Of a DNA stretch of 11,959 nucleotides, positions 2,233-10,924 are shown one piece after another; within the stretch, counting starts at the first letter, position 1, and each line of letters begins with the position of its first letter. The notes below the pieces were generated by a model. That model did no database searches, was not told the origin of the DNA, and saw only the letters and a list, made by a program, of their open reading frames with translations. Origin of the DNA: a bacterium (GTDB taxonomy: Bacteria; Bdellovibrionota; Bdellovibrionia; Bdellovibrionales; UBA1609). The position numbers and the translations under genes were made by a program. The stretch is from the NCBI GenBank assembly GCA_021784635.1, contig JAJYHS010000085.1, positions 1 to 11,959 of the forward strand. Reading direction: 5' to 3'.

Positions 2233-3702
2233 CTATGGTTGATACCGTAATGGCAAACCGGACTCGCTTCGTGGTGCGCGACCAGTTCCAACCTGAAAAA
2301 TTCGCATAGTGTTAGTTTTAGCGCCCTGATGAACCGGCAATCCAAGCGTCATTATTATTTTGTCGCCCGGTTGGCAAAGACCGTACTGTAGCAGCTTTTG
2401 TTCGATTTGTTCCATCGCTTCTTCGCTGCTTTTATACGGCAGAATCGGAAGCGTTTGAATTCCCCAAACCAATTCCAGCCGGTTCAAAGTTTCAGGAACG
2501 TGTGTAACAGCTACAATTTTTGCCCGTGGACGAAATCCTGAAATCAGCGTTGCCGTTCGACCAGTCGTCGATAGGCACACAATTACCGGCGCGTTGATTT
2601 TAAGCGCTGAAAGCGAGGCGCTGGCGCTAATTGTTTCTGCGACTTCCATAAATTCCTGATCGAGCGAAATGTCATAGTAGAGATCACTTGATCGTTCAAC
2701 TTCTAGAATAATTTCGTGCATCGTTTGAATACATTTGAACGGATATTTTCCGCTCGCCGATTCTGCCGACAGCATACACGCATCGGAGCCATCAAGAACG
2801 GCGTTTGCGACATCGGTAATCTCAGCCCGCGTCGGCCGCGGATTTTCAACCATCGAATCGAGCATCTGAGTCGCGGTGATCACCGGCCGGCCCATGTCAT
2901 TACACAATGATATAATCCGTTTTTGTTTCTGCGGAAGTAACGTCTGCCCCACTTCGACTGCCAAATCTCCGCGCGCCACCATCACTCCATCGCTTAAGGC
3001 GACGATATCTTCAAGATTTTCAAGCGCCTCGGCCATCTCAATTTTGGCGATTATCCGTGTATTCGGGTTTTTCGATTGAATAATCTCGCGGAGTTTTTGA
3101 ATATCGCTACCCTGCCGAACAAAACTGAGCGCGACATAATCGACCTTCTGCGCGAGCCCAAATTCAAGATCATTTAAATCTTTTTCGGTCATACAATCGA
3201 CCGGCAAGCGTGCGCCCGGCAGATTCATGCCCTTTCGGTCCTTTAGCACTCCCCCAAAAACCACTCGGCATTTCACTTCAGTATCTGCCACAGACAAAAC
3301 GCTCAATTCGAGCAAACCGTCGTCGAGAAGAATTCGCGTCCCCGGCTGACACGACTGCGGCAGCTCTTTAAAATCCGTTGTAATGGTTTTTTCGTCGCCC
3401 AGTTCAAGCGTCGTCGATATGGAAATTTCAGCGCCTTCTTTCAGCGTTACCGCGCCGCCATTGAGACGGCCGACGCGAATTTTTGGCCCCTGAAGGTCTT
3501 GCAAAATCGCGACTGGCGCGTTGAGCTCCAAAGACAACTCACGAATATGCCGGATCACTGCGAGGTGCTCAGCATGCTCTCCGTGTGAAAAATTGAGCCG
3601 CGCGACATTCATACCGGCTCGAATGGCTTTTTCAAGATTTTCACGCGACCGCGTCGAAGGCCCTATGGTCGCGACGATTTTGGTTCGTCGATCCGCCAAC
3701 AT
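2233..3702 (-). CDS. pyk: Pyruvate kinase, predicted K+-independent type
   Basis: Final ATP-forming step of glycolysis: phosphoenolpyruvate plus ADP gives pyruvate plus ATP, in the cytoplasm. At 489 residues it is normal length. The N-terminal barrel begins with TKIVATIGPSTRS, then MNVARLNFSHG (Arg35, Asn37, Ser39). The active-site signature RIIAKIEMAEAL carries catalytic Lys220 and metal ligand Glu222; VARGDLAVE supplies Asp246; ATQMLDSM and PRPTRAE complete the site. The B domain lies at about 75-175 and the C-terminal domain runs from about 345 to the end. The segment DLQGPKIRV has Leu70, Gln71, Lys74 and Val77 where K+-dependent enzymes have Thr, Lys, Glu and Thr. That pattern belongs to the K+-independent branch, as in E. 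coli PykA. The ATG is preceded by GGGAG (about seven bases away) in an 18-base gap after the coiled-coil gene, so the two are very likely co-transcribed. Confidence 0.97.
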   Translation of the reverse strand: MLADRRTKIVATIGPSTRSRENLEKAIRAGMNVARLNFSHGEHAEHLAVIRHIRELSLELNAPVAILQDLQGPKIRVGRLNGGAVTLKEGAEISISTTLELGDEKTITTDFKELPQSCQPGTRILLDDGLLELSVLSVADTEVKCRVVFGGVLKDRKGMNLPGARLPVDCMTEKDLNDLEFGLAQKVDYVALSFVRQGSDIQKLREIIQSKNPNTRIIAKIEMAEALENLEDIVALSDGVMVARGDLAVEVGQTLLPQKQKRIISLCNDMGRPVITATQMLDSMVENPRPTRAEITDVANAVLDGSDACMLSAESASGKYPFKCIQTMHEIILEVERSSDLYYDISLDQEFMEVAETISASASLSALKINAPVIVCLSTTGRTATLISGFRPRAKIVAVTHVPETLNRLELVWGIQTLPILPYKSSEEAMEQIEQKLLQYGLCQPGDKIIMTLGLPVHQGAKTNTMRIFQVGTGRAPRSESGLPLRYQP

Positions 3703-3720: not shown

Positions 3721-5403
3721 CTACGACTTTTCTTCTTGTTTCATAGTCGTGAGCACTTGGTCTAGCTTTTCTTGATTGCGTCGATCGATTTCGTGAACTT
3801 CTCGCTCGTGCGCGAGCTCCGCGAGCCTCATTTTATCTTGATACTGTATTTTCTGGGTTTCGAGCTGCTGATGGGATTCACGTTTCATTTCTTTGACTAA
3901 ACGGCGATCGCGAATTTGATCCTGTTGGCGCTCAAGTGTCAATTTGTCCTGCAAATTATTGATTTGATTTTGATAATGTTCTTTGAGATTCGCCAAATTC
4001 TCTTGATCTCGCATTTCTTGGTGTTCGGCGTGCTCTTCAACAGTACGCAACTCAGCCGCGCTCTTTTTGCGCATCTCGAGCATAAGGTCGCGCCGCTTGG
4101 TTTGAAACGCTTGTCTTTCTTGTTGAACATTAGCAACGTAATTCTTTCGGAGCTGTTTTTCGGTTTCAAATGCATTCTGCCGGATTTTTTTGATTCTCTC
4201 ACTCGCCAGATTTTGCTCGTATTGATTACGAAGCGTCGACTGTTGCTTTTGATTCGCCAAGGCCTCTTGATTAATTTCATTTTCGAGATCCGATTGCGAA
4301 AGAACCTGGCGTTCATCGGTCTGCATCTGCTGGCTGTCTTTTTCGTGGATCTTTCGAATATTCGCGGCATTGATGGCGTTACTGTCTCTTAGCGCTTCGA
4401 CCCGCTCCCGCTGAAGATCAGCGTATTTCTGCTGATAGTCATTTTCAATATTTTTAATTTCACGTTGGGCTTGCGCCTCTTCGTTCACGTTATTTAAAAC
4501 CTTTTCTTGTTTGGCTCTCGCCAATTCAAACTTGAGATCGCGCAGCTCATTATTCATGCGATCTTCAATACGGTCGTGGGCCTGTTCATCGATGCCCTGC
4601 AATTTTTCATTTTCATTCTGAAGTGATTCGTCATAGCGCTGGCGAAGAGTCTTTAAATTTTGGTTAAATCCGTCCCGCGCCCTTGCCAATTCTGCGTGTT
4701 GCATCTCTTCTTTATTCTGCAACATGCTCATATCGTGAGATTCAATTCGATCTTCATTGTTTTGATAATGCTGTTTTTGATCGTGCAACCGCATTTCATA
4801 ATAACGGTTTAGTTCGTCATTTTCTTTTTGAAGCTGGCCCACTTCTTGATCACGGCTCATGCGAATAGCTTCGGTTTCTTTTTGATGCTGTGTATTGAGA
4901 TCTTTGCGCGTTTGATCGACAGCCCGCTTTTCGCTTGCTCGGATCTGATTCAAATTATTTTCGAACTGTTGGGACTGTTGCGCTTGCTGATCGGCATATT
5001 GTTGCTCAAGTTCGCTCAGGCGGTTGTTCTGATCCATGTTATTGGTGCGTAGCTCTTCGTTCGCTTCAAAACGAGCGCGCTCCAGCCTGTCTTGATTTTC
5101 GGCCCGCAACTTTTCGACTTGTTTGGCGTGCATTTTGCGAAGCTGGTCGATTTCGTTCTGATATTCCATATCCCGTCGAGTAATCGCGTCTTGATTAGCC
5201 TCGCGGTCTCTATTTAATATTTTTTGGTTTTGCCGCTCGAGATCCGTGATTCGGCGATCGTAATACTTATTCAATTTCGCGAGCTGAAAGTTTTGATTCT
5301 TTATCAGGTCGTCTATTTTTTTTTGATAACGTTCGCGCTGATCGCGCAATTCGTCAGCTTGCCAGTCGTGATGAGATGACTTTGACCCGATAATTGAACC
5401 CAT
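3721..5403 (-). CDS. Long hendecad coiled-coil rod protein
   Basis: No catalytic domain is visible. After a short head (MGSIIGSKSSHHDW) nearly all 560 residues are predicted helix rich in Gln, Glu, Arg, Asn and Lys. I find no proline, no cysteine, one tryptophan (14) and five glycines. The helix follows an 11-residue repeat in one unbroken register from about residue 26 to 554. Eleven of the 15 tyrosines (26, 48, 81, 136, 202, 213, 257, 323, 422, 477, 521) and Phe147, 246 and 433 fall on the same repeat position. The position four residues later is Leu, Ile, Val or Met in 33 of 48 repeats. This is an a-d-h hendecad core. There is no signal peptide or membrane segment, so it is probably cytoplasmic: a structural filament or scaffold in the manner of bacterial intermediate filament-like proteins. 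A membrane-lying amphipathic 11-mer helix is the alternative. It starts with ATG without a clear Shine-Dalgarno site, 78 bases after the FecR-like gene and 18 bases before pyk. Confidence 0.88.
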   Translation of the reverse strand: MGSIIGSKSSHHDWQADELRDQRERYQKKIDDLIKNQNFQLAKLNKYYDRRITDLERQNQKILNRDREANQDAITRRDMEYQNEIDQLRKMHAKQVEKLRAENQDRLERARFEANEELRTNNMDQNNRLSELEQQYADQQAQQSQQFENNLNQIRASEKRAVDQTRKDLNTQHQKETEAIRMSRDQEVGQLQKENDELNRYYEMRLHDQKQHYQNNEDRIESHDMSMLQNKEEMQHAELARARDGFNQNLKTLRQRYDESLQNENEKLQGIDEQAHDRIEDRMNNELRDLKFELARAKQEKVLNNVNEEAQAQREIKNIENDYQQKYADLQRERVEALRDSNAINAANIRKIHEKDSQQMQTDERQVLSQSDLENEINQEALANQKQQSTLRNQYEQNLASERIKKIRQNAFETEKQLRKNYVANVQQERQAFQTKRRDLMLEMRKKSAAELRTVEEHAEHQEMRDQENLANLKEHYQNQINNLQDKLTLERQQDQIRDRRLVKEMKRESHQQLETQKIQYQDKMRLAELAHEREVHEIDRRNQEKLDQVLTTMKQEEKS

Positions 5404-5481: not shown

Positions 5482-6291
5482 TTAAAGATTGTTCGGATTG
5501 ACGCCAATAAAATTTTCGGTGCGAAATAGATCCCGAAGCTTTTGGTTTTCGGCCCGCTCCTTAGCCCTTCGACGAGCCAGCCGCTCTTTTTCGGCTCGCG
5601 CCGAAGCCAGCTCCCGCTCGACAACCTGTCTGTACCAAGGGCCAACTGCAGAAATGGCCGACACCCAATTCGGTAAAAAGGCCTTTACGTTCTGTTTGAA
5701 ATGGCTCAAATCATTTTGCGCGTAAACCTGCGCCCACGTCTTAAGCAAATTACGTACGACCGCCGCATGCGGAAAACCCGTACGCGCCACTCCCGATTGC
5801 GAAATACGCGCCATGCGCACGACCATGCCTTTCGGCAGCGGGAGCGCCGCCTTTTCGCCGCGCGGTTGATAAACTAAATTACTTGTTAGGTTTGTCACAT
5901 CGATGTACCGGTCTTGCACGAAGATTAATGCCGACCCTTTCGTGAGTCTTGCCGCTCCATAGAGAGTTTTGACAATGACCGGTTTGTGCGCGCGCAACCA
6001 AAAAACTCCGCGAACCAGGTGAAGAGTCATCGTTGCCGAAGACGCTTGGTTCGGACTGCGATCAACGACCAAGCTCGCATCGGATGACATTCTCAGGTCG
6101 CCAAACGCTAAATGCATAGTCCGTTTTGTTTTATCGTTCAAATACGCACAGGCTTTGAAACGGCTAACGTGTTTAATACAACTGGAAGGCAGCTCAACAG
6201 GTATGGCTTTCACTCTCACGTCAAGAACAGAGGCGAGAATAAACGCGGCGATTATGAGCAAGCGCCGAGACATGGGTTTCGCGAAAATCAC
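5482..6291 (-). CDS. Secreted FecR-like domain protein with charged C-terminal helix
   Basis: A signal peptide (basic MSRR at 7-10, hydrophobic 11-22, possible cleavage after VKA near residue 29) suggests export. Residues about 90-165 resemble a FecR domain: GVFWLRAH, then VKTLYGAARLTKGSALIFV, a beta hairpin IDVTNLTSNLVYQPRG and LPKGMVVRM. FecR-type domains are periplasmic beta-structures in sigma regulation and in many envelope proteins; no sigma or anti-sigma gene is nearby. Mature Cys38 and Cys48 could form a disulfide. The C-terminus (about 220-257) is a very charged helix rich in Ala, Glu and Arg. The start is GTG at 6291, which overlaps the TGA of the TPR gene as GTGA. AGGAGG (6296-6301) inside that gene's last codons serves as its ribosome site, though only four bases away. 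The ATG at 6273 would still give a signal peptide but lacks a ribosome site. The two genes are therefore probably translationally coupled. FecR assignment is moderate; the exact role is unknown. Confidence 0.75.
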   Translation of the reverse strand: MIFAKPMSRRLLIIAAFILASVLDVRVKAIPVELPSSCIKHVSRFKACAYLNDKTKRTMHLAFGDLRMSSDASLVVDRSPNQASSATMTLHLVRGVFWLRAHKPVIVKTLYGAARLTKGSALIFVQDRYIDVTNLTSNLVYQPRGEKAALPLPKGMVVRMARISQSGVARTGFPHAAVVRNLLKTWAQVYAQNDLSHFKQNVKAFLPNWVSAISAVGPWYRQVVERELASARAEKERLARRRAKERAENQKLRDLFRTENFIGVNPNNL

Positions 6292-6977
6292 ATCGCCTCC
6301 TGACGAAGCCCATTGGCCGCCAGTTGTGCAAGCTCGCGATTTGAAAACGACTTCATTACGGTTCGATAGATATCGGCAGCGCCTTTGTAACGATTCTTTA
6401 TCTGATAGATTTGCGCCATGCGAATCATTGCATAGCCGGTCAACTCATTGGCCGGAAAAAGATCGATCATTTGATTTGCATAAGCTATGGCCTGACTATA
6501 TTTACCGAGTCGAAAACTGCCTTCTACGATTAAGAACATGGCTTTGGGGACATCGTATGAATACGGATGGTTGTTGATAAGCGACCTAAAGATGGAAATG
6601 GCCGCTCGGTAATTTTTATCGTTGAATTGCCGGCTGGCTTGATTAAAGAGCGATTGGGCGGTTTGAAATCCCAAAACATCATTCGACTGATCTTGAACGA
6701 CACTGGCCAACATTCGCTGCGGATAACTTTTCTCGCCAAAGCCTTCTTTTTTGATCGCGGACGGCAAAAGTGTAGCAACTTCAGTTTTGAAATCGGCGAA
6801 TTCGTACGACAATAGAAGCGTTTTAAATTTCTGCTGGCGCACGCGATACTGTAGAGCTTCAATTTGATCGTGAAGCTCATGAATAGGACTAAAATGCTGC
6901 CGGAGCCGACTGTAAAACAACGTCAGCGCGAGCGTCATCGTCAGCGTGAATGTAACTAAGACATTAGAACTCATCAC
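6288..6977 (-). CDS. Membrane-anchored TPR protein
   Basis: A hydrophobic N-terminal segment (about 5-22, LVTFTLTMTLALTLFYS) followed by Arg residues suggests a single membrane anchor; no lipobox is present. Residues about 32-65 can form a short coiled coil. From about 107 to 214 there are three tetratricopeptide-like helix pairs, seen from AQSLFNQASRQFNDKNYRAAISIF, then KAMFLIVEGSFRLGKYSQAIAYANQMIDLFP, then AMIRMAQIYQIKNRYKGAADIY. The pattern resembles the C-terminal TPR of CpoB/YbgF-type envelope proteins, but it is not enough to name it. TPRs bind partner proteins; the overlapping downstream FecR-like gene is the natural candidate partner. The start is GTG at 6977 or ATG at 6974; neither has a clear Shine-Dalgarno sequence. 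It follows argS by 85 bases on the same strand. Confidence 0.78.
   Translation of the reverse strand: MMSSNVLVTFTLTMTLALTLFYSRLRQHFSPIHELHDQIEALQYRVRQQKFKTLLLSYEFADFKTEVATLLPSAIKKEGFGEKSYPQRMLASVVQDQSNDVLGFQTAQSLFNQASRQFNDKNYRAAISIFRSLINNHPYSYDVPKAMFLIVEGSFRLGKYSQAIAYANQMIDLFPANELTGYAMIRMAQIYQIKNRYKGAADIYRTVMKSFSNRELAQLAANGLRQEAM
6296..6301 (-). promoter_or_regulatory. Ribosome binding site of the FecR-like gene, inside the TPR gene
   Basis: AGGAGG on the minus strand sits four bases before the GTG at 6291 and within the last codons (QEAM) of the TPR gene. It decides in favour of the GTG start and a GTGA stop-start overlap, which suggests translational coupling. Confidence 0.6.
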
Positions 6978-9235: not shown

Positions 9236-10924
9236 TCAGCGCATAATCGACGTTCGAATCATTTGTATTTTGAGGTTTTCGGCTTTTTGTGCTTGTTCCT
9301 GAAGCTCGCGGTCGAGCTCCATAGCGTCCCGGTAATGTCGCAACTCCGCCAAATTTAACCTCTGGCTTGTTCGGTCGATGTCGTCACGCAAGTTGTGGAG
9401 CGCCATCCACTGCGTCGGGTGCAGATAACTTTCACGATTGCGATAGTTGATGCGGCTCATAATCGGATTTTGAATCCGCCAAAACTCCTCGCGCCAACCC
9501 AAATAAAACGTCCGCCATGAGGTGACTGTAAGCCGCAACCGTGCGGCATCGACAAGTTTTTTCGTCACGTTTGCCAACAAATTCGCTGTTCGAATATATC
9601 CTATGCGCTCATAATTGTGTTCGAAAATTTCGTCTTTTCGTTGCTGTCGAATCTTTTGCGGCCACGACTTTCGGAATGTACCGACTCGTAAAATCCCAGC
9701 GGCCGACTGTTTCTGGCACTTGATCTTATAACTATATATACCCCACGGCAGGTGCCAACGCCCTAGATGTATCTCGTCGTCTTTTTCAAGGTGAACCGTA
9801 CGGTTAAAGAAATAACTAAAATGATTTAATACATATCCGCCTTCAGCGGCCAAGTGCACTTGCATTGCAAATTGCGAACTGGCATCGGTAAGAATCCGAA
9901 ATATGGGATTTGTTCGGCCATTGTTGAGTGTTTCAACGCGCAAATAGGTCGGCGGATGTAAAACGATGACCGGCGGCTTTTTAATTTTTTGAATTAAGAT
10001 TGGTTTCCCTTTGGCTATAACGGGCGCCGGCTTTCGCACCACCGGAGCAGGAATCTTTTCGGGTGGCAGTTGTGCAACAGCCGGTTTTTTTAAAGCTACA
10101 TTACGACGATCGAGATAAGACGAAACCCAAAAAACCGTTATGACCAAGCACCCCACAGTCACCAGCAAAATGCCGCCAAAAATCGTTCGTTTAACAGGTG
10201 GCAAATCCATAAAATAAGTCATGGCGCCCATTCGTCGCCCTTCGACACGCACGCGGTTTTGGCTTTCTCGGCCTCTCCTGACTTTTTTCGTGACCTCAGG
10301 TTTCGTAATTTCTGATTTTACTGTTTCTGATTTTACCTTTTCTGATTTTGCGTCTTCGTTTTTCGCAATGCGAGGGTCTGGCGGCGGTGCGTCCCCTTGC
10401 TCATGCGGTTCAACTTCAACGGGATCATCCTCGGGCGGCATTACGGCCGGTATGGGCATAGCCGTCGGAATCGGCACCGGAACGGGCACTGCGGTCTGCG
10501 TCTGCTGATCGGGATCGAAAAGTTGTTCTTTAATTTCAGGTACAGCTAAGATTTTGTACCATTCTTTGAGACCTTCACGCCAAACATAGTCGGTTATCGT
10601 AATTTTGCCGTTTTTGAGCTGGCGAATAATTTCAGCGGTTGTGAACGGACCATTTTGCCGGTATCCGCCGCCATCTGTATTTCTTGTCAGCAAAACCCAT
10701 CGATCTTCTTTTTTTGCCGCCGGGCTTTTTTGATCGACTTTTTTTTGCTGCTCCAGATGTGGCTGGAACTCGGCAAAAAATTGCACTTCACGCCACTGCG
10801 TATCGCGTTCGCGATAAAGCAAATCCTGCCGCTGTAAACGACACGCGCGGATTTCAGCCAAAATGAATTCAGCGTTAACGGGCCCCCGGGGGCGACCCTT
10901 TTCTAAGAAATACCAGACGGACAA
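9236..10924 (-). CDS. Tandem GYF_2 (DUF4339) single-pass membrane protein
   Basis: Two GYF_2-type domains lie at the N-terminus. The first (about 3-57) has VWYFLEKGRPRGPVN; the second (about 75-136) has NGPFTTAEIIRQLKNGKITITDYVWREGLKEWYKI. In eukaryotes GYF domains bind proline-rich peptides; the bacterial ligands are mostly unknown. A proline-rich stretch (145-184), a KSE-type 5-residue repeat (192-211) and a basic patch (215-231) follow. Then comes one membrane helix (about 248-269). A second Pro/Lys-rich stalk (280-325) leads to a C-terminal domain (about 326-562) with a beta-rich first part, WHLPWGIYSYKIKC, and a helical, Arg-rich end. The basic patch before the helix predicts a cytoplasmic N-terminus and periplasmic C-terminus. 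The two Pro-rich segments could be GYF ligands in cis. The start is TTG after a strong purine run (AGGGAGGGGG, 10926-10935 region). It is divergent from the VKOR-DsbA gene and convergent with HU. Function unknown; an envelope or polarity scaffold is a guess. Confidence 0.8.
   Translation of the reverse strand: MSVWYFLEKGRPRGPVNAEFILAEIRACRLQRQDLLYRERDTQWREVQFFAEFQPHLEQQKKVDQKSPAAKKEDRWVLLTRNTDGGGYRQNGPFTTAEIIRQLKNGKITITDYVWREGLKEWYKILAVPEIKEQLFDPDQQTQTAVPVPVPIPTAMPIPAVMPPEDDPVEVEPHEQGDAPPPDPRIAKNEDAKSEKVKSETVKSEITKPEVTKKVRRGRESQNRVRVEGRRMGAMTYFMDLPPVKRTIFGGILLVTVGCLVITVFWVSSYLDRRNVALKKPAVAQLPPEKIPAPVVRKPAPVIAKGKPILIQKIKKPPVIVLHPPTYLRVETLNNGRTNPIFRILTDASSQFAMQVHLAAEGGYVLNHFSYFFNRTVHLEKDDEIHLGRWHLPWGIYSYKIKCQKQSAAGILRVGTFRKSWPQKIRQQRKDEIFEHNYERIGYIRTANLLANVTKKLVDAARLRLTVTSWRTFYLGWREEFWRIQNPIMSRINYRNRESYLHPTQWMALHNLRDDIDRTSQRLNLAELRHYRDAMELDRELQEQAQKAENLKIQMIRTSIMR
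10309..10353. repeat. Three tandem 15-bp repeats within the GYF_2 gene
   Basis: Three head-to-tail units (10309-10323, 10324-10338, 10339-10353) each begin with TTTCTGATTTT on the plus strand. A decayed fourth unit lies just before, at about 10294-10308. On the coding strand each unit encodes five residues of the form K-S-E-x-V/T. The repeat could change copy number by slippage without a frameshift, which would alter linker length. Confidence 0.8.

Follow-up and report, generated by a model that had tools for sequence, protein, structure and literature searches.

We find that the minus strand of the window, by which we mean the whole 11,959-nucleotide stretch of Bdellovibrionales DNA analysed here, encodes a long rod protein whose hydrophobic core follows an 11-residue (hendecad) repeat in a single phase, and that this protein belongs to a family of fixed length encoded beside pyruvate kinase (Table 1). 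Members drift to a median pairwise identity of 0.20 while staying almost free of insertions and deletions, which points to a structural protein family that is undescribed as far as open-licence papers show. We consider it about an even call that the protein is a cytoplasmic, all-hendecad building block of fixed length that assembles into filaments or a lattice. In such an arrangement, chains would pair in parallel register through the seam formed by core positions a, d and h, each rod would measure about 80 nm if fully extended, and rods would associate end-to-end or side by side through conserved terminal segments. A cytoplasmic location is suggested because no signal peptide is seen by eye, and end-to-end or staggered assembly because constant length combined with a drifting sequence is what such assembly needs, on the model of tropomyosin and intermediate filaments.

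Table 1. The rod gene, its parts and its neighbours, in nucleotide positions of the window
Feature	Positions	Strand	Basis and remarks
Hendecad rod gene	3721..5403	-	560 aa, ATG start; open reading frame list, 11/3 periodicity, family
About 48 hendecads in one phase (residues 26-554)	3742..5328	-	Constant phase; family hendecad table
N-terminal segment (about residues 12-44)	5272..5370	-	Best conserved 33-column bin; part of the ~97 residues with likeness to a short free-standing protein found in other genomes
Central motif and predicted helix break (residues 243-281; R-D-G-F, G245)	4561..4677	-	Gly columns 260 and 264, low helix propensity; AF2 break at 264-281
Pyruvate kinase	2233..3702	-	18 bp downstream of the rod gene; Pfam PF00224 and PF02887
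Upstream neighbour 'SEC'	5482..6291	-	Start resembles a signal peptide by eye; Pfam gives no family above cut-off
TPR protein	6288..6977	-	Pfam TPR_6 and YfiO; hydrophobic N-terminal anchor by eye

A hendecad core in a single phase

Hydrophobicity along the window protein repeats at a period of 11/3 residues with a power of 35.8, against 0.7 at 3.5, the period of a seven-residue repeat. Shuffled versions of the protein reached at most 12.5 at 11/3 (20,000 shuffles) and a maximum of 11.9 over all periods (500 shuffles). The local phase holds between 47 and 73 degrees along the protein, and between 41 and 76 degrees in the family mean, with no break; the local signal is weak at residues 353-451 (2.5 at 11/3, 2.3 at 3.5), a stretch in which the family mean is not weak. 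A sequence-only reading of this DNA had proposed an unbroken a-d-h hendecad core without phase shift, and the 11/3 power together with the constant local phase bears this out: the observation is confirmed and is stronger than it had been stated, whereas the interpretation attached to it is partly supported. The interval that had been marked is real and corresponds to the hendecad stretch in Table 1, but the gene itself is longer. Frame 1 of the plus strand holds several stops over that interval.

With core position a placed at residue 8 modulo 11, d at 0 and h at 4, tyrosine falls at h. Over the whole protein 11 of 15 Tyr occupy this one of eleven classes (chance p about 4e-8), joined there by 3 of 7 Phe and by six Asn, so that the counts reported earlier are reproduced; Leu, Ile, Val or Met stands four residues further on in 34 cases by our recount (33 had been given) and seven residues further on in 21, as had been given. 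The recurring tyrosine that had been singled out is thus real as a feature of one core position, but that position is not filled by Tyr alone. Across 33 aligned members, h holds 265 of 410 Tyr, 133 of 261 Phe and 267 of 487 His, and the choice is specific to the column, some h columns being mostly Tyr or Phe and others His, Leu or Asn. We also looked for order beyond the hendecad. A 55-residue super-period of the aromatic h positions is not claimed (best at 5.1 hendecads, permutation p 0.06 over all periods and 0.006 at exactly 5), no internal duplication appeared once the hendecad mean was removed (best correlation 0.05), and a search for a long charge period gave no clear one.

The composition of the core bears on how many chains the rod contains. 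Excerpts of PMC9858780 describe hendecad coiled coils as largely unexplored, with hydrophobic residues chiefly at a, d and h and very minor supercoiling. According to the same excerpts, one core residue of each hendecad faces the axis, which requires that residue to be small, chiefly Ala, or the oligomer to be higher (PMC9858780). In the rod family the hydrophobic fraction is 0.68, 0.52 and 0.44 at a, d and h and 0.06-0.14 at the other eight positions (33 aligned members). Ala makes up 0.023, 0.054 and 0.048 of these three positions and 0.064 of all residues, and 41% of h is Tyr, Phe, Trp or His compared with 5% Ala. The axis-pointing h of this family therefore carries bulky His, Tyr, Leu, Asn or Phe, unlike the small residue of hendecad dimers. 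By the rule in those excerpts, this suggests more than two chains, although the hydrophobic seam is narrow, which argues against that number. With bulky axial residues over some 48 repeats, the family lends itself to testing how chain number depends on such residues.

The same seam bears on the alternative raised in the sequence-only reading, namely that the protein lies on a membrane as an amphipathic helix of 11-residue repeats, in the manner of apolipoprotein A-I, synuclein or perilipin. The 11/3 period would suit such a helix, and its best support comes from weak matches to apolipoprotein A-I: the family profile finds apolipoprotein A-I chains with a best E of 7e-4 (11 of 14 matches up to E 1), and for PF01442 one of 32 members matches at E 1e-7, a 647-aa rod scores 24.2 bits and a short paralog 17.8 bits against a cut-off of 90. 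These matches probably reflect the 11-residue period itself. Apolipoprotein A-I has a wide lipid-facing side and Pro-punctuated repeats. While it shares the helical periodicity, the rod presents only a narrow seam of three positions: on the hendecad wheel h sits between d and a, so that hydrophobic residues are confined to 3 of 11 wheel positions spanning 65 degrees, with no wide face. Mean hydrophobicity is -0.04 and net charge is near zero per 18 residues. The alternative is weakened accordingly, and we regard a membrane-lying helix as very improbable.

A rod family of fixed length in two size classes

In a set of 59 genomes, consisting of the window's own and 58 relatives, 34 match the rod (the own genome included), 32 of these over nearly the full length. 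The named records among the relatives are five Bdellovibrio and one Bdellovibrionaceae, Bdellovibrio being labelled as of the same order as the window's genome. A first alignment, without locus L025 (a near copy of L026), holds 33 members including the window's. All 33 peak at a period of 3.66-3.67 with power below 1.5 at 3.5, so that the seven-residue period named earlier as the competing outcome is nowhere dominant, and the Tyr phase is conserved as had been anticipated: 43-100% of Tyr lie at h, from 6 of 14 (L010) to 6 of 6 (L021), where chance would give 1/11. Conservation along the alignment itself has a period of 3.66 (power 82). A rod from another family of the class (L068) places 11 of 12 Tyr in one class modulo 11.

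Lengths were taken from 107 first-class rod matches (down to E about 1e-45), with weaker matches, second pieces and short paralogs dropped. Matched spans run from 532 to 557 codons (median 552, s.d. 4.6) in 101 of the 107, six shorter ones being set aside. An alignment of 94 rods, from which 13 of the 107 were left out, some of them divergent or incomplete, shows no core insertion or deletion in 90; the four exceptions are a contig end (L030), one insertion plus one deletion (L029), and two rods that have lost 2 and 3 residues. Rod length varies by 0.8% by spans and by 0.45% by model columns (93 rods). As a control, the neighbouring SEC protein ranges from 202 to 284 aa, a variation of 6.5%, in 21 complete open reading frames that are 20-51% identical to the window's. 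One further match, in genome G254, contains two in-frame TAG codons.

A second and longer size class occurs in family f12 of the phylum. At three fetched loci the rods are 647 aa long (the third within a longer open reading frame with an inner start), lie directly before pyruvate kinase and peak at 3.67. They place 13 of 20, 12 of 18 and 17 of 26 Tyr in one class modulo 11, and in both size groups the Tyr class is the middle one of a 4-4 spacing. A profile built from these three rods finds 76 matches in f12 (G060-G188), with second pieces, the second rod of G106 and weaker matches dropped; 70 of them span 614-647 codons and 23 exactly 647. Genome G106 carries a pair of rod-like genes about 24 kb from each other on the same contig. 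In phylum families other than this class and f12, pyruvate kinase is present and rod matches are only weak or partial.

Conservation per 33-column bin is highest in the first bin (1.8, vs 0.9-1.4), the last bin (1.31) being not outstanding. A separate protein of 93-97 aa resembles the N-terminal ~97 residues of the rod in at least the seven loci fetched (L058-L064, for example L060:2511-2801, minus strand), with more among the matches listed. None of these seven loci has pyruvate kinase near the short protein, which is a possible cap or partner of the rod.

Fixed length may also be read in another way, with single rods acting as a molecular spacer or ruler that bridges two structures ~80 nm apart (~97 nm for the 647-aa class) and does not polymerise. 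Length is the most conserved property of the family, a second and longer class exists, and the N-terminal segment is conserved, all of which would be in keeping with a spacer; against it, Pfam finds no end domain and no anchor is seen by eye. We judge a non-polymerising spacer unlikely compared with the filament or lattice building block. Constancy of length at about 20% identity, together with a pyruvate kinase neighbour in two groups, calls for a specific architecture.

The pyruvate kinase neighbourhood

We scored adjacency in genomes that have both rod and pyruvate kinase among the matches listed, using for the first class the same 107 rod matches as for length. In 68 of 70 scorable genomes of the first class, pyruvate kinase follows the rod directly on the same strand, and it follows the longer rod in this way in 33 of 37 scorable f12 genomes. 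Misses have several forms: in G052 and G144 a contig break seems to fall inside the rod, in G183 the rod is in two pieces just before pyruvate kinase, and in G078, G130 and G265 the two genes are on different contigs. Among the first 30 loci, the rod adjoins pyruvate kinase in 29 and the thirtieth runs off its contig.

Further genes of the neighbourhood are kept in relatives of the window. Five named-record loci share with it the CoA transferase, cyclic-nucleotide-binding, pyruvate kinase, rod, SEC, TPR and GYF genes, with VKOR matched in four of the five, HU in three and argS in none. The TPR gene overlaps SEC by 4 bp, and the gene order is kept in relatives. In the f12 loci examined, neighbours besides pyruvate kinase differ from those of the window. 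The window's own GYF gene (9236-10924, minus strand) encodes a 562-aa protein with two GYF_2 stretches and a membrane-spanning segment by eye, and adjoins a VKOR-like gene; the protein matching GYF at the Bdellovibrio loci is separate and short, with 135-154 aa.

In family f1, 29 of 47 genomes have both the rod and pyruvate kinase, 14 have neither, 4 have pyruvate kinase only and none has the rod only. One of the 14 genomes lacking pyruvate kinase (G001) gives a weak rod match (E 2.4e-4). The co-occurrence has a Fisher p of 9e-9, uncorrected for kinship or missing sequence, a value that overstates the case because the genomes are related and some are incomplete. Among genomes outside f1, a rod in G055 and a partial rod in G049 come with no match to pyruvate kinase. 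In genus g33, of Bdellovibrio's own family, none of 14 genomes matches the rod profile while pyruvate kinase is present (at most three candidates per genome were scored); one of these genomes is probably the P. exovorus chromosome. The rod would thus be dispensable in g33. None of three g33 loci examined (L069, L070, L071) has a rod before pyruvate kinase. Directly preceding the enzyme at these loci are two genes placed like TPR and SEC, which have no sequence match to TPR or SEC at E 1e-3.

The link to pyruvate kinase may reflect binding or simply a shared transcript, and it could signify that the rod serves metabolism and not structure. A specific version holds that the rod is a scaffold or organiser of pyruvate kinase, binding the enzyme along its length or at its end, and that the genes share an operon for that reason. 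Same-strand adjacency in two groups, retention of this one neighbour in the f12 loci examined where others differ from the window's, and the f1 pattern (no clear rod in 14 of 14 genomes lacking the enzyme, a rod in 29 of 33 that have it) would all fit a scaffold. They are countered by the 18 genomes of the class that keep the enzyme with no rod match (14 in g33, 4 in f1), by the rod and partial rod of G055 and G049, and by the other phylum families with the enzyme and only weak or partial rod matches; the joint losses, moreover, may be a single deletion. On balance a pyruvate kinase scaffold appears distinctly unlikely.

Predicted structure and relation to known coiled coils

An AF2 monomer model of the window rod, made from 32 sequences (mean pLDDT 79, pTM 0.21), is helical at residues 14-263 and 282-559 and non-helical at 1-13, 264-281 and 560. 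The core sequences of the family contain a single Pro in 17,563 residues. The predicted internal break lies near the conserved Gly-containing motif at mid-rod (G245; Gly in 21 of 33 members at alignment column 260), in the stretch where the family has its poorest helix propensity. Gly-containing motifs sit at about 44-51% of the core in one size class and at about 45-48% in the other. The register is unbroken at the motif, and the helix there may be broken. A Foldseek search returned no similar solved structure and, among viral models, nothing below E 5.

The model allows that the rod may be hinged or folded back, and the latter would make it a hairpin, with a turn at the central Gly motif and antiparallel packing of the arms on either side of it, similar to SMC-type arms. 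The AF2 break and the mid-core Gly motifs of both size classes are consistent with a hairpin, as is the 647-aa rod model (3 sequences), one of whose four breaks (296-302) falls at its own Gly motif. That model, however, also breaks at three further places, one of them (153-166) at another invariant Gly, so that the breaks may be artefacts of single-chain folding; spurious bends can occur when long coiled coils are modelled as monomers, according to excerpts of PMC11676326. Covariation peaks at i+4 and i+3 and is lower at i+7, i+11 and i+14. No antidiagonal rises above background (over all offsets the best z is 3.2), in a set whose effective number of 74 may be too small to exclude an antiparallel hairpin. 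We consider the hairpin quite improbable next to the extended, parallel rod. A fuller version of the building-block reading, possible but doubtful, is a cytoskeletal family of the Bdellovibrionota with parallel three- or four-chain rods, an axial ladder of aromatic residues, His and Asn, two closely held lengths, a central Gly hinge, a free N-terminal paralog as cap and a coupling to pyruvate kinase.

Searched against Pfam, the window rod gives nothing up to E 0.1, and each family that does appear is matched by at most 2 of 32 members; DivIVA is absent among the families matched by any of these 32 up to E 0.1. NCBIfam gives scattered matches of single members, with that of the window rod far below cut-off, and a large protein database (8000 candidates scored) returned 5 and 4 proteins, two being the window's own. 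Open-licence papers joining hendecads with Bdellovibrio were not found; a survey of hendecad proteins is said to have appeared in 2023. Crescentin and the intermediate-filament-like proteins are likewise elongated coiled coils, with a possible part in cell shape or scaffolding. They are mainly heptad-based with breaks, whereas the rod is almost without a 3.5 signal and has no phase break. The rods of tropomyosin and intermediate filaments, eukaryotic and built of heptads, keep their length constant while their sequence changes. They share this constancy with our rod, and neither is among the Pfam families found for it.

Bacterial rods rich in hendecads are already known from FilP and Scy of Actinobacteria, which excerpts of PMC9858780 present as long coiled coils with extended or nearly complete hendecad rods and as being involved in cell division. 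FilP and Scy, in the same excerpts, have an N-terminal DivIVA-like domain, form dimers and carry many core Ala (PMC9858780). The rod described here differs in its Ala content of 2-5% at core positions and in the 41% of h given to Tyr, Phe, Trp or His, and since it has no DivIVA domain, it is not a FilP or Scy.

The genome that we take to be B. bacteriovorus HD100 carries a rod of 558 aa adjoining pyruvate kinase, and a member in that genome makes function directly testable in predatory Bdellovibrio. There SEC, TPR and one further open reading frame lie between the rod and the HU gene, which is at 53.3% of the chromosome. HU is Bd2104 in B. bacteriovorus according to excerpts of PMC11318664, which together with excerpts of PMC12546842 supplied the markers for a locus-tag map. 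A count of four open reading frames from this HU gene, which sits on the map where Bd2104 is expected, would make the rod about Bd2100. Among the markers, a KH protein taken as Bd2626 is ambiguous, with ten matches in G048. Tags of the Bd209x-Bd211x range are absent from the main text of PMC12034629 and PMC2797640. In the open-licence literature, Bd2099-Bd2102 receive only an unrelated mention.

Ccrp, a coiled-coil protein of B. bacteriovorus reportedly described by Fenton et al. in 2010, resembles the rod in being a Bdellovibrio coiled coil discussed as intermediate-filament-like. An identity of the rod with Ccrp, which we considered first, disagrees with the map, on which the rod is about Bd2100 whereas Bd2697, which we take to be Ccrp, falls near a heptad coiled coil. 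The rod is probably not the Ccrp of B. bacteriovorus. Excerpts of Banks et al. 2022 (PMC8938487) describe a sole Ccrp in this species whose deletion left the vibrioid shape unaffected, and a title cited there has Ccrp preventing indentation. A search of the open-licence literature for Bd2697 and its neighbouring tags returned nothing. The heptad coiled coil near that position is a 407-aa, Ala-rich protein with a period of 3.51 and a signal peptide-like start by eye (L045:5552-6775, minus strand); the same protein lies at 2618740-2619963 in what is presumably the HD100 genome and is a candidate for Ccrp by the map position of Bd2697.
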